Positions 38,865 to 44,362 of a stretch of 63,530 bases of DNA are shown here, in pieces. Source of the DNA: Acidobacteriota bacterium (lineage in GTDB: Bacteria; Acidobacteriota; Vicinamibacteria; Vicinamibacterales; CAVVIG01); the NCBI GenBank assembly GCA_003222535.1, contig QHWJ01000331.1, forward strand, positions 1-63,530. The letters are read 5' to 3'. Within the stretch, counting starts at the first letter, position 1. The number at the start of each line of letters is the position of its first letter. The position numbers were made by a program, and so were the translations under genes. The notes below the pieces were generated by a model. That model searched no databases, was not told the origin of the DNA, and worked only from the letters and a program-made list of their open reading frames with translations.

Positions 38865-39371
38865 TCACCGGACTCTGGTCCCTGGCGGCGGAGGCTCATC
38901 GAACGATACGACGGTGGGCTTGCCGCCGTCGGGACTGGCGGCGAGCACCATCCCGTTCGATTCGATCCCCATCAGCTTCGCCGGCTTCAGGTTGAACACG
39001 ATGACGACCGTGCGGCCGACGAGGGCTTCGGGCTCGTACGCTTCGGCGATTCCTGCAACGAGCGTGCGCTGCTCGGTGCCGACGTCCACGCTGAGCTTCA
39101 GCAGCTTGTTCGACTTCGGCACACGCTCGGCCGTGAGGACCTTCGCAGTACGCAGCTCGACTTTCATGAAGTCTTCGATGGCGATTCGCTCGCTACCGCT
39201 CTCACCGTGTGCGGGACCCGCCTGCTGCGACGGTGCGGAAGGTGCCGGTGCGATCGGGCTCGCAGTCGCCGCCGTCGGGTCGGGCGATGCCTGAGGAGCC
39301 GAGGGCACGAGCGCCGGAGCGCCAGCCGTCGTCGGTGGTACCGCGGTCGGTTTCGTCTCGTTGTCAGTCAC
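38865..39371 (-). CDS. tRNA-binding (EMAP-II/Trbp111) domain, C-terminal part of MetG in another frame
   Basis: A GTG at 39371 with AAAGGAG nine bases upstream starts 168 residues: a Pro/Ala-rich linker, then ERIAIEDFMKVELRTAKVLTAERVPKSNKLLKLSVDVGTE and the OB-fold typical of the MetG C-terminal tRNA-binding domain. In the same frame, upstream of the GTG, the bases encode GPLWPR, the end of a MetG body. The domain therefore belongs to metG but is out of frame with 39407-40849. It might be translated on its own as a Trbp111-like protein. Confidence 0.8.
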   Translation of the reverse strand: MTDNETKPTAVPPTTAGAPALVPSAPQASPDPTAATASPIAPAPSAPSQQAGPAHGESGSERIAIEDFMKVELRTAKVLTAERVPKSNKLLKLSVDVGTEQRTLVAGIAEAYEPEALVGRTVVIVFNLKPAKLMGIESNGMVLAASPDGGKPTVVSFDEPPPPGTRVR

Positions 39372-39406
39372 GGTCTTGGGCTCCTTTGCGTTGCCTGAGC
39401 CGACAC

Positions 39407-40849
39407 TCACGTCGGCGCGTGCCGTCGCGTCCCGGCGCGGCCAGAGGGGTCCAGGATTTCTCGACCGGACGATGGGATGATCGGCAGCAGCAGCACGGCG
39501 GAGAGCCTGATGGCCTCCGCCGCGTCGAACAGCACCTGCGTCAGGCGATCGGCGGACGCCGCATCCTTCGCCAGCGCCCACGGCGAAGTCGCCGCGATGA
39601 ACTCGTTGGTCGCGTCGATCAGCCGGAAGGCCGCCGCCGCGCCTTCGTGCAGCGCGAAGCCGTCCATCGCGCGACGGTAGTCGGCGATCACCCGCTCGCC
39701 GAGACGCGCCAGCTGATCGGAGCCGGCGCCGGTCGGCGCCAGCCGGCCCTGCCGATAGCGGACCGCCATCGTGGTCACGCGGCTCACCAGGTTCCCGAGG
39801 TTGTTCGCGAGATCGACGTTGTAGCGCTCGTCGTACCGTTCCCAGGAGAAGTCGCCGTCGCCGCCGAACGCGACCTCCTTCACCAGATACAGCCGCAGCG
39901 TGTCGGTGCCGAGCCGGCCGGCCGCGTCGCCCGGATCGATGAGGTTGCCGAGCGTCTTGCTCATGCGCTGGCCGTTCAACGTCATGAAGCCGTGGCCGAA
40001 GATCTGGCGCGGCACGGGCAGCTGTGCGGCCATCAGCATGGCCGGCCAGATCACGGCATGGAACCGGGTGATGTCTTTGCCGATCACGTGCAAATCCGCC
40101 GGCCACCAGCGCGCGAACATCTGCGGGTCGTGGCCGAGGCCCACCGCCGACGCGTAGTTGATCAACGCGTCGAACCAGACGTAGACGACGCTCCCCGGAT
40201 CCCATGGCAGCGGGATGCCCCACGACTGCCCGGCCCGGCTGACGGACACGTCAATCAGGCCGCTCTCAATCAGCCGCAGGATTTCGTTGCGGCGCATGTC
40301 CGGCTGCATGAACTCGGGATGCGCGGCGAAGTGATCGAGCAACGGCTGCTGGTACTTCGACAGCCGGAAAAAGTAGTTCTTCTCGCGGATCCACTCGGGC
40401 TTGAGCGTCGGGTGCAGCGGGCAGTTGCCGTCGGCGAGATCCTTCTCCTGCTTGAACTCCTCGCAGCTGACGCAGTACCAGCCTTCGTAGACGCCCTCGT
40501 AGATGTCGCCGGCGTCGTAGATGCGCTTCACGAGATCGGTGACCCCCGCCTTGTGCCGCGGCTCCGTGGTGCGGATGAAATCGTCGAACGAAACGTCGAG
40601 CCGCCGCCACGCCGTGCGGAACACATCCTCCATCCGGTCGCAGTACGCCAGCGGATCCAGCCCTTCCTCGCTCGCCTTCTTGAACACGTTCTGCGAATGT
40701 TCGTCGTTCCCCATCAGGAACAGCGTATCGAAGCCGCAGAGCCGCTTGTACCGCGCGATGACGTCGGCGCAGATCTTCTCGTACGACGTGCCGAGATGCG
40801 GCTGGCTGTTCACGTAGTCGATGGCGGTGGTCAGAAAGAAGCGGGTCAT
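39407..40849 (-). CDS. metG: Methionyl-tRNA synthetase, catalytic and anticodon-binding part
   Basis: It encodes 480 residues of a class I synthetase. The HIGH-equivalent is PHLGTSYEKI; the KMSKS equivalent is RMSKTLG. Others are FLMGNDEHSQNVFK, YCVSCEEF and NYFFRLSKYQQPLL, and the anticodon domain begins SRVTTMAVRYRQGRL. Near LLPIIPSSGREIL about 30 codons found in homologues are missing and the frame changes, so the linker and tRNA-binding domain (38865-39371) are read in another phase. The catalytic core is complete. It charges methionine tRNA. Confidence 0.93.
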   Translation of the reverse strand: MTRFFLTTAIDYVNSQPHLGTSYEKICADVIARYKRLCGFDTLFLMGNDEHSQNVFKKASEEGLDPLAYCDRMEDVFRTAWRRLDVSFDDFIRTTEPRHKAGVTDLVKRIYDAGDIYEGVYEGWYCVSCEEFKQEKDLADGNCPLHPTLKPEWIREKNYFFRLSKYQQPLLDHFAAHPEFMQPDMRRNEILRLIESGLIDVSVSRAGQSWGIPLPWDPGSVVYVWFDALINYASAVGLGHDPQMFARWWPADLHVIGKDITRFHAVIWPAMLMAAQLPVPRQIFGHGFMTLNGQRMSKTLGNLIDPGDAAGRLGTDTLRLYLVKEVAFGGDGDFSWERYDERYNVDLANNLGNLVSRVTTMAVRYRQGRLAPTGAGSDQLARLGERVIADYRRAMDGFALHEGAAAAFRLIDATNEFIAATSPWALAKDAASADRLTQVLFDAAEAIRLSAVLLLPIIPSSGREILDPSGRAGTRRHAPT

Positions 40850-42249
40850 GTCCGTCCCGCGGCGGGTCCGGAACCGCCGGCCCCACGCCCGCCATAGGCA
40901 TTCAGCGCGATCGCCTGCACCTCTTTGACCGGCAGGCCGCTGGCCGCCGCCAGCTTCGCGCAGTCCTCGAACTCGGGGACGGCGTTCATCACCCGGCCGT
41001 CACGCCGCGAGACCTTGAATCGCACGGCACCGATCGGGGTCTCGACGGTGACGATCTCACGCTGCAGGCACTCGCGATCCACATCGTAGTGCCGCAGCCC
41101 GATCGTCGTCGTCTCGCGGAAGATGACGTCGGCCATTTGCGCGCGGTGATCGGGCCGCGCCACGACCGTCAGCAGCGTGCCGGGGCGGTTCTTCTTCATC
41201 TGCACCGGGATGTAGAACACCTCGAGTGCGCCCGCGGCGTAGAGCCGGTCCATCACGACGCCGAAGATCTGCGGGTTCATGTCGTCGATCTCGCACTCGA
41301 TGACGGTGACGCGCGCCGCTTCGGTTGTGGCACCCCTGAAGGGGTACCCTGCGTTGGTCGGGAAGGGGTGCCCTGCGTCCGCGGCGGCTACATTCTCCCT
41401 CACGCTCACCTCGGTCCCGATCAGCACGCGCAGCACGTTCGGCGTCTTCGGATCGTCGCGGTCGCCCGCGCCGTACCCGACGCGCTCGATCGACATGGCC
41501 GGAGTCGGCCCGAACGACGAGGCGTACGACGTCGCAATCAGCGCGCCGGTCGGCGTCACCAGTTCTTTCTGGACGGCGCCGCTGTAGACCGGGGCGTCGC
41601 CAAGCAGCTTCACGGTCGCCGGTGCCGGCACCGGGAACACCCCGTGCGCCGATTGCACCATGCCGCCCCCCACGTTGAGCGGCGAGCACACGATCCGGTC
41701 CGGGGCGGCCCATTCCATCGCGAACACGACGCCGATGATGTCGATGATCGAGTCGAGGGCGCCGACCTCGTGCAGGTGCACCTCCTCGACAGGCATCTGA
41801 TGGATCGACGCTTCGGCCTCCGCCAGGCGCTGAAACATCGCCTTCGCGCGATCGCGTCCGCCCGACGACAACGCCGACGTGTCGATCAGCGCGAAGATTT
41901 CCGGAAGGCTTCGGTGATCGCGATGGTGATGAAGAGATCCTGTAGGGTGCTCAATGGATCCGCCAGGGTGCTGGGTGGATCCCGCAGAGTGCTGGGCGGA
42001 TTCTGCAGGGTGCCCGGCGTGAGCGTGCGAGTGCTCGGAGGATCCTCCAGAGTGCTCGTGGACGATGAACTTCGTGGCCGACACGTTGGCGCGCAGGACA
42101 CGCTCGGCGTGGAGGTGACAGCCCGACACCGTCAGGCTGCCGAGGGCGCGCCTCAGCTCCTCGAGCGGCAGACCGGCATCGAGCATCGCGCCAAGCGCCA
42201 TGTCCCCCGAAATCCCGGAGAAGCAGTCGAAATAGAGCACCCGGCTCAC
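40846..42249 (-). CDS. larC: Nickel-pincer cofactor biosynthesis protein LarC
   Basis: It encodes 467 residues of the LarC (DUF111) family: YFDCFSGISGDMALGAMLDAG, then VEEVHLHEVGALDSIIDIIG, NVGGGMVQSAHGVFPVPAPAT and CEIDDMNPQIFG. LarC inserts nickel into the pyridinium bis-thiocarboxylate cofactor of lactate racemase-like enzymes. Residues ~64-112 are a His-rich insert with repeated QH-GGS / EH-TGS units that could bind nickel. A second insert, GHPFPTNAGYPFRGA, is encoded by a REP-like hairpin. Four-base overlaps join it to radC and metG. larB and larE are not in the window. Confidence 0.92.
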   Translation of the reverse strand: MSRVLYFDCFSGISGDMALGAMLDAGLPLEELRRALGSLTVSGCHLHAERVLRANVSATKFIVHEHSGGSSEHSHAHAGHPAESAQHSAGSTQHPGGSIEHPTGSLHHHRDHRSLPEIFALIDTSALSSGGRDRAKAMFQRLAEAEASIHQMPVEEVHLHEVGALDSIIDIIGVVFAMEWAAPDRIVCSPLNVGGGMVQSAHGVFPVPAPATVKLLGDAPVYSGAVQKELVTPTGALIATSYASSFGPTPAMSIERVGYGAGDRDDPKTPNVLRVLIGTEVSVRENVAAADAGHPFPTNAGYPFRGATTEAARVTVIECEIDDMNPQIFGVVMDRLYAAGALEVFYIPVQMKKNRPGTLLTVVARPDHRAQMADVIFRETTTIGLRHYDVDRECLQREIVTVETPIGAVRFKVSRRDGRVMNAVPEFEDCAKLAAASGLPVKEVQAIALNAYGGRGAGGSGPAAGRT

Positions 42250-43561: not shown

Positions 43562-44347
43562 TTACCGCAGCCAATTGCCCTCGAAGAGGACTTCGGCCCA
43601 GCCGGTGAGATAGACGCTGTCGTCGCGCCACTGGACCCTCTGCCGGCCACCCGGGGCGACGACGTCGGCGTCCCGCGCCGCCCCGCCGAACCGGGCGGCC
43701 GCAATCAGCGCCGCGCACGAACCGGTTCCCGACGACATCGTCGGTCCCACCCCGCGCTCCCAGATCAGGATCCGCACCGTATCCGGCGCTTCGACGTGCG
43801 CGAACTCGACGTTCGATCGTTCCGGGAAGATCGGATGGCGCTCCAGCGCAGGTCCGAGGCGGCGGAACTGATCCTCGTCGGGCAGCGGTCCCAGGCTCAC
43901 GCACTGCGGGTTGCCGAAGTTCATCACGGCCAGCTGGAGCGACTCGCCGGCGGCCGTGACCGTCACCTGCCGGAGATCGACCGGCAGCCCCATCGCGGCG
44001 CGGAAGGTCTGCCGCGACGCGGTGCGCCCGGTGCGCACCAGCGGCTTCGCTCCACCCTCGCTGTGGATCGTGATGGCGACATCGTCGCGATCGTCGTCGC
44101 GCAGCAGGATGGCCGCCAGCCCTCTCACGCCGTTGCCGGACACCTCGGAGCGGCTGCCGTCCGCGTTGAGCAGGCGCATCGACGCGCCGTCCGGCGTCGG
44201 CTCATAGACGATCAACCCGTCGCCGCCGATGCCGGTATGGCGGTCGCAGAGCTCGCGTGCGAGCGGACCGGGGTCGCGGCCGTCGATGTCTGCGGCCAGG
44301 ACGTAGAGGAAGTCGTTCCCGTAGGCGTGCGCTTTCGAGAATCTCAT
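43562..44347 (-). CDS. dapF: Diaminopimelate epimerase-like protein with both catalytic cysteines replaced by serine
   Basis: The start at 44347 gives 261 residues with the DapF twofold fold: MRFSKAHAYGNDFLYV, RHTGIGGDGLI and NFGNPQCV. In DapF the two catalytic cysteines lie in CGNGxR and ACGTG. Here the first site reads EVSGNGVRGLA (Ser70) and the second GPTMSSGTGSCAA (Ser206), both confirmed at codon level (TCC and TCG). DapF normally epimerises LL- to meso-diaminopimelate for peptidoglycan and lysine. With two serines that activity is doubtful, so a changed reaction or a lineage-specific variant is possible. The family assignment is firm. Confidence 0.8.
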   Translation of the reverse strand: MRFSKAHAYGNDFLYVLAADIDGRDPGPLARELCDRHTGIGGDGLIVYEPTPDGASMRLLNADGSRSEVSGNGVRGLAAILLRDDDRDDVAITIHSEGGAKPLVRTGRTASRQTFRAAMGLPVDLRQVTVTAAGESLQLAVMNFGNPQCVSLGPLPDEDQFRRLGPALERHPIFPERSNVEFAHVEAPDTVRILIWERGVGPTMSSGTGSCAALIAAARFGGAARDADVVAPGGRQRVQWRDDSVYLTGWAEVLFEGNWLR

Positions 44348-44362
44348 TTTTCCCGCCTCCAC

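Follow-up and report, generated by a model that had tools for sequence, protein, structure and literature searches.

Diaminopimelate (DAP) epimerase, DapF, is the standard example of a thiolate–thiol pair that takes a very weakly acidic proton. In the known enzymes of this family, a thiolate removes the alpha proton of the substrate and a proton is returned by the thiol on the other side, and aziridine inhibitors react with this same pair. To our knowledge, meso-DAP dehydrogenase (Ddh) is the only bypass of the step, and a Ser/Ser pair serving stereoinversion in the DapF/proline-racemase fold would be the first one known. No natural Ser/Ser DapF came up in searches of an open-access library, which covers few subscription papers and preprints. 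According to the accessible portion of PMC12039745, known DapFs have their catalytic cysteines at helix starts, and in the accessible portion of PMC5296763 a shut-off of Corynebacterium glutamicum DapF by a disulfide between its two cysteines is proposed.

The gene considered here lies in a window of 63,530 nucleotides, by which we mean the whole stretch of DNA that was analysed. It is a dapF-like gene at 43562..44347 on the minus strand, with the ATG at 44347 and the stop codon ending at 43562, and encodes 261 amino acids plus the stop. The initial annotation gave these coordinates correctly and omitted the strand. A likely ribosome-binding site, GGAGG, can be read in the sequence at 44356..44360 (minus strand), 8 bases upstream of the ATG. 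It had been claimed that both cysteines of DapF are replaced by serine at codon level and that the frame has no defects, and both statements agree with what was found. The TCC codon of Ser70 (44138..44140, minus strand; motif EVSGNGVRG) replaces the first catalytic cysteine and the TCG codon of Ser206 (43730..43732, minus strand; motif GPTMSSGTG, in which the latter serine of the pair is the equivalent) replaces the second one, these being Cys73 and Cys217 in E. coli numbering; the frame contains no internal stop. Cysteines stand opposite both serines in three alignments to solved DapF structures. In the window, its immediate neighbours are RadC and a methyltransferase-like gene, and LarC and MetG lie farther out. 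The LarC-type nickel pincer cofactor gene (40849-42249, minus strand) adjoins RadC and exceeds the cut-offs of both the LarC1 and LarC2 models. MetG (38865-40849, minus strand) seems to be split over two frames: a frame of 480 amino acids matches the family model over its first three quarters or so and no further, and the apparent tail lies in an overlapping frame that ends at 38865.

By family and predicted fold, the window protein belongs with DapF. With the DapF model TIGR00652 it scores 168.9 bits (cut-off 114.65), almost all of its length being covered, and it scores 122.2 bits with PF01678, DAP_epimerase (cut-off 34.7), which is the sole Pfam family matched; TIGR00652 accepts the Ser/Ser protein without flagging the changed catalytic pair. 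An AlphaFold2 model built from the window protein and 46 relatives (mean pLDDT 97.1) predicts helices starting at 71 and 207, immediately after Ser70 and Ser206, and AlphaFold2 together with Foldseek places the active site between two like domains, as in DapF. The top Foldseek match is Anabaena DapF 9mro (TM 0.89), and two of the first 26 chains belong to O-ureidoserine racemase (7vdy), the others all being DapF. Among the 50 matches listed, the folds of PhzF, HisR and proline racemase come after DapF, with 11–18% identity. The PhzF or proline racemase family was considered as the closest kin and rejected, since in this listing DapF structures outrank both, which reach 11–16% identity, and DAP_epimerase alone is matched in Pfam. 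The two catalytic cysteines by which a DapF is recognised are absent, and because Ser70 and Ser206 replace them, the protein was filed as DapF-like and as probably working like DapF.

All the residues that hold both ends of DAP are present in the window protein. They were taken from the DapF enzymes of C. glutamicum (PMC5296763) and Anabaena (PMC12039745), as described in the accessible text of these papers, and comprise, in H. influenzae/E. coli numbers, Asn11, Asn64, Asn75, Asn157, Asn190, Glu208, Arg209 and Thr/Ser219. Conservation was counted over 166 Ser/Ser rows, namely the window protein, 110 loci and 55 phylum genomes, with near-copies kept in. Asn11, Gly71, Asn179, Glu197 and Arg198 are kept in all 166 rows, and Asn61, Asn72, Asn146 and Gly207 each in 165. 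At position 208, 148 rows have Thr and 18 have Ser. The equivalents of eight of these ten positions were tested in C. glutamicum DapF and found to be needed, according to the part of PMC5296763 that could be consulted. The Asn146 position, equivalent to Asn157, is Val in 30 of the 39 Cys/Cys proteins of the phylum, so that the Ser/Ser protein, judged by its contacts with DAP, is the more usual DapF of the two, and the substrate of the Cys/Cys DapF-like proteins with Val at this position may deserve a check. Position 68 is Glu in 156/166 Ser/Ser rows and seems to match the Glu that, in the DapF of plants and cyanobacteria, is salt-bridged to the key Arg. Among the conserved positions, none stood out as a new base specific to the Ser/Ser clade.

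The pair of serines is not confined to one organism. Both were found in 110 of 110 related loci, corresponding to 88 distinct proteins, a result far beyond chance; of these loci, 30 come from the window's family and order, where 36 genomes have a match, and 80 are the best of 99 relatives among named records, the two sets overlapping in part. The set of 99 relatives is labelled mostly as Acidobacteria, Vicinamibacteria. A few of its members labelled Bifidobacterium, Acidimicrobiia, Woeseiaceae and Cyanobacteria look like misnamed bins. All four TCN codons are used at both serine positions in the 110 loci, which means that the DNA has drifted while the residue stayed fixed. No DapF match was obtained in 4 of 40 relatives of the window's family and order, and one of these four (G004) has LysA.

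A DapF match is present in 241 of 247 genomes of the phylum, Acidobacteriota to judge by the names of the relatives, and missing from 6. The phylum-wide comparison of DapF-like proteins that had been proposed in the initial annotation covered 99 of these genomes with one locus each (30 best matches, 40 picked to cover families and 29 lower-scoring). Of these loci, 55 are Ser/Ser, 39 are Cys/Cys, 4 are Cys/Ser and one is incomplete. When the phylum loci are combined with 30 relatives and counted by family codes, Ser/Ser is found in 41 of 73, Cys/Cys in 28, Cys/Ser in 4 and an incomplete protein in 1, family code f35 being counted in two groups. The Ser/Ser protein is thus a real and widespread variant of DapF. 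The suggestion that a matched double change reflects selection is supported by these counts (110/110 relatives, 41/73 family codes). The idea of a lineage-specific active site holds in that Ser/Ser is kept among relatives; it is too narrow if one small lineage was meant. The Cys/Cys proteins of the phylum carry an ERGVE or ERGIE loop in 37 of 39 cases, against 1 of the 166 Ser/Ser rows (L187). Ser/Ser proteins usually have the loop WERGVGxTxSSGTG, which is as long as its counterpart in E. coli and Bacteroides. Outside the phylum, 8 of 9 DapF proteins are Cys/Cys and 1 is Cys/Ser; these are the E. coli protein and eight plasmid-borne genes from other phyla, hand-picked among 40 matches listed of 108. 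The Cys/Ser case is a DapF-like protein on a Burkholderia stagnalis plasmid (L230), with GSA instead of GNG after the first cysteine, and is probably a paralogue. No relative was found in two scans of viral contigs.

The origin of the pair was considered on a tree of 124 rows, from which the two catalytic columns were removed before building. On it, 68 Ser/Ser rows form one clade free of other states (SH-aLRT 89), and three more lie close to this clade. The Ser/Ser label requires three changes on the tree, two of them forced by well-supported branches. L187 (genome G040) groups with the Cys/Cys ERGVE proteins and is the only Ser/Ser row with the loop of that group and the only one without Asn146, having Val instead, like most members of that group. 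A single clade of all Ser/Ser rows is not rejected (AU p 0.069), and the Ser/Ser rows minus L187 are compatible with one clade (AU p 0.70). The tree therefore suggests one main origin of Ser/Ser, and a second one in L187 is likely but not proven. Four phylum proteins (L149, L161, L188 and L193) have Cys at the first position and Ser at the second one, and the reverse order, Ser/Cys, was not met among the loci read in 99 phylum genomes. The four may represent in-between forms, and this asymmetry hints at the order in which the two residues changed.

The genomes appear to need the reaction. In the 95.5% complete assembly of the window's own genome one DapF was recognised, and the second DapF with Cys/Cys that the initial annotation advised looking for was not found. 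On another contig of this genome, asd, lysC, dapB, dapA, dapD and an M20 deacylase form one run, an arrangement that suggests the succinylase pathway as the source of LL-DAP. The M20 deacylase of this run scores below every DapE cut-off, and the aminotransferase step is without a clear candidate. DapB is present in 11 of 13 genomes, in 10 of them above the cut-off, the own genome included. LysA occurs in the own genome, is above the cut-off in 12 of 13 genomes and was recognised in 43 of the 55 Ser/Ser genomes (35 above the cut-off), being absent or below the limit in 12. Six of seven genomes, including the own one, have a recognisable MurE, and all six proteins have the motif DNPR, which we take to mark a MurE that adds meso-DAP; the genes beside murE (murD, ftsW, murG, murC, ftsA and ftsZ) are ordinary. 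Concerning the cell-wall chemistry of the class, nothing was found in the open-access literature.

Two ways around an LL-DAP epimerase were examined and rejected. Ddh does not exceed its cut-off in any of 26 genomes, the own genome included, or in any of the 55 Ser/Ser genomes, and the controls of this search, Bacteroides ihuae and C. glutamicum, were both above it; weak matches in 14 of the 26 genomes, the own not among them, reach E 9.5e-6 at best. Plant-type DapL is above its cut-off in 0 of 13 genomes, and the own genome has the dapD of the succinylase route. Judged by its genes, this genome makes LL-DAP and uses meso-DAP without a Ddh above the cut-off, its DapE and aminotransferase not being pinned down, and since neither a second DapF nor Ddh was found, its meso-DAP has no other recognised source.

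In our opinion, the product of this gene is probably a functional DAP epimerase whose Ser/Ser pair is natural. The enzyme would convert LL-DAP to meso-DAP for lysine and peptidoglycan using Ser/Ser instead of Cys/Cys as the acid–base pair. One serine hydroxyl would remove the alpha proton of LL-DAP, the amine of the substrate being protonated, and the serine on the opposite face would return a proton. The base serine could be helped by the helix dipole or helix start and by backbone NH groups. Turnover may be slower than with cysteine, yet enough for these cells. A low rate may suffice: according to the accessible part of PMC6254735, E. coli carrying two DapF variants with impaired kinetics showed wild-type growth when no drug was present. 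A Ser/Ser pair would also be immune to disulfide shut-off, and oxidation resistance is a possible gain.

The main argument against a working Ser/Ser epimerase comes, by analogy, from mutants of PddB, whose single Cys-to-Ser forms keep <0.1% activity, as stated in the consulted sections of PMC8225329. Faint residual activity of Cys-to-Ser mutants of M. tuberculosis DapF is cited in the same sections, and the activity of HisR is greatly reduced by both C67S and C209S in the excerpted text of PMC11602996. Also counting against it are the lack of a new conserved base specific to the clade, the Ser/Ser genomes in which LysA is absent or below the limit, the three with further DapF matches, the genomes with no DapF match, the MurI result for the own genome and the gaps at DapE and the aminotransferase. 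With regard to the broader proposal of a natural cofactor-free epimerase distributed across much of the phylum, in which two serine hydroxyls do both proton transfers, we consider the chances to be about even.

Among other explanations, the one that survives best is a different reaction, as was suggested in the initial annotation. The protein would act on DAP or a similar amino acid by racemization, dehydration or isomerization, and meso-DAP would come from an unrecognised enzyme. In particular, it might be a racemase with D-glutamate as its main product or as an additional one. In the accessible part of PMC5885031, Chlamydia DapF can make D-glutamate, and in that of PMC4113996 a protein with Ser90/Thr256 in the sister proline racemase family is a dehydratase, an instance of changed catalytic residues accompanying a changed reaction. 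The glutamate racemase MurI (TIGR00067) was recognised in only two of 13 genomes, neither of them the own one, so that another racemase duty is possible for the Ser/Ser protein. However, both MurI-positive genomes (G008, locus L020, and G025, locus L017) carry the same Ser/Ser protein, and the window protein scores only 46.3 bits with the model of bifunctional DapF/glutamate racemases, NF038284, whose cut-off is 350. The own genome has MurD and MurE, although no MurI was found in it.

The gene neighbourhoods were also inspected with regard to a different reaction. In 15 phylum loci scanned, a specialised gene cluster around Ser/Ser dapF was looked for and not seen, and the neighbours vary. An HtrA-type protease lies beside dapF in 5 of the 15; in L114, L136, L137, L142 and L204, belonging to four family codes, a protease of HtrA/DegP type directly precedes the Ser/Ser gene. 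The other neighbours are RecG, TyrS, PyrF, weak sugar-kinase matches, an M20 hydrolase (in L128, below every DapE cut-off shown) or nothing that could be named, and a weak match to muramoyltetrapeptide carboxypeptidase is found in L189. No lysine genes were recognised among the scanned neighbours. Such variable surroundings without lysine genes are neutral on a role in DAP metabolism, and the lack of a dedicated pathway cluster in these loci argues against a different reaction.

A single DapF match is found in 52 of the 55 Ser/Ser genomes, with further matches in G093, G174 and G259. In two of these three, the f35 genomes G259 and G093, a divergent group of Ser/Ser genes (L138/L240 and L165/L241) lies near ThiC and a PLP enzyme of Cys/Met metabolism; this group is possibly a paralogue with another job, and there the Ser/Ser protein may have a side role. 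These two genomes favour a different reaction. For the window protein, the kept DAP contacts, the presence of DAP-pathway genes and the failure to find Ddh or a second DapF speak against it, and on the whole we regard a different reaction as rather unlikely.

A less probable explanation, which we would give only a small chance, is a DAP epimerase in which the proton is transferred by other groups, such as a non-catalytic cysteine, water or the substrate itself, and the serines only position the substrate. Serine is a poor base on paper, and three cysteines attract attention: Cys34, kept in 165/166 Ser/Ser rows, and Cys149 and Cys211, each kept in 132/166 and missing from all 39 of the phylum's Cys/Cys proteins. 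Nevertheless, Cys34 is equally common in these Cys/Cys proteins (36/39) and is Ala in E. coli, whereas Cys149 and Cys211 are each absent from 34 of the 166 rows and occur in ordinary Cys/Cys DapFs, Cys211 in those of E. coli and Bacteroides and Cys149 in that of Anabaena. A migrated catalytic cysteine was accordingly rejected, as no cysteine is both near-invariant in the Ser/Ser group and particular to it. The invariance of Ser70 and Ser206 in the 68-row clade also argues against a purely positioning role.

It is very improbable that the protein is catalytically dead and retained as a DAP binder or as a partner of another enzyme. Both catalytic residues are indeed changed, and the complex of E. 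coli DapF with RppH (structures 6d13 and 6vck, of which part of the record was available) indicates that the DapF fold can hold a second job. In a dead protein, however, loss of the serines and of the DAP contacts would be expected, and both are kept; moreover, with a sole DapF match in 52/55 genomes, Ddh in 0/55 and LysA in 43/55, meso-DAP would be left without a known source. A sequencing or assembly error, a pseudogene or a decaying gene can practically be dismissed, because no point in its favour was found, the Ser/Ser loci agree in 110 of 110 cases over many assemblies and the frame is open.

If dozens of families do run this step on two serines, as the reading of the protein as a working Ser/Ser epimerase implies, a thiol would not be required for DAP epimerization, and natural sequences could show which adaptations enable serine to take its place. 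In these bacteria, the synthesis of meso-DAP would be thiol-independent and proof against oxidation and thiol reagents, and DapF inhibitors directed at thiols should fail on them. If the protein does something else, these bacteria would be without a recognised source of meso-DAP, which is an equally large gap.

Summarizing the comparison with known systems, the closest are the DapF enzymes themselves (TIGR00652; structures 9mro of Anabaena, 3ejx of Arabidopsis, 4ijz of E. coli and 1bwz of H. influenzae). The window protein is like them in family score, two-domain fold, DAP contacts, predicted placement of the catalytic residues at helix starts and pathway setting, and unlike them in having serine for both catalytic cysteines. 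The DapF mutants C73S (2q9h) and C217S (2q9j), as far as their records were available, have the same fold and serine at one of the same places; they are single laboratory mutants, whereas the window protein has a natural double serine held across families. The Cys/Cys DapF-like proteins of the phylum, each being the DapF match read in its own genome, differ from it in keeping both cysteines and, for the most part, in having Val for the DAP-contact Asn (30/39), and are mostly one residue longer before the second cysteine.

More distant likenesses are found in the proline racemase superfamily. In the accessible part of PMC4113996, hydroxyproline 2-epimerase is an active two-base epimerase with Ser93 opposite a Cys (numbered 255 in the text and 236 in a legend), and trans-3-hydroxyproline dehydratase has Ser opposite Thr. 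The consulted part of the review PMC8142540 names an aspartate/glutamate racemase in which Thr replaces one Cys. The hydroxyproline enzymes, as described there in PMC4113996, share with the window protein a natural serine at the first position and a related fold, and differ from it in family, in substrates and in having no Ser/Ser pair. The Ser/Cys hydroxyproline epimerase may thus be regarded, by analogy, as a partial precedent for a Ser/Ser DapF.
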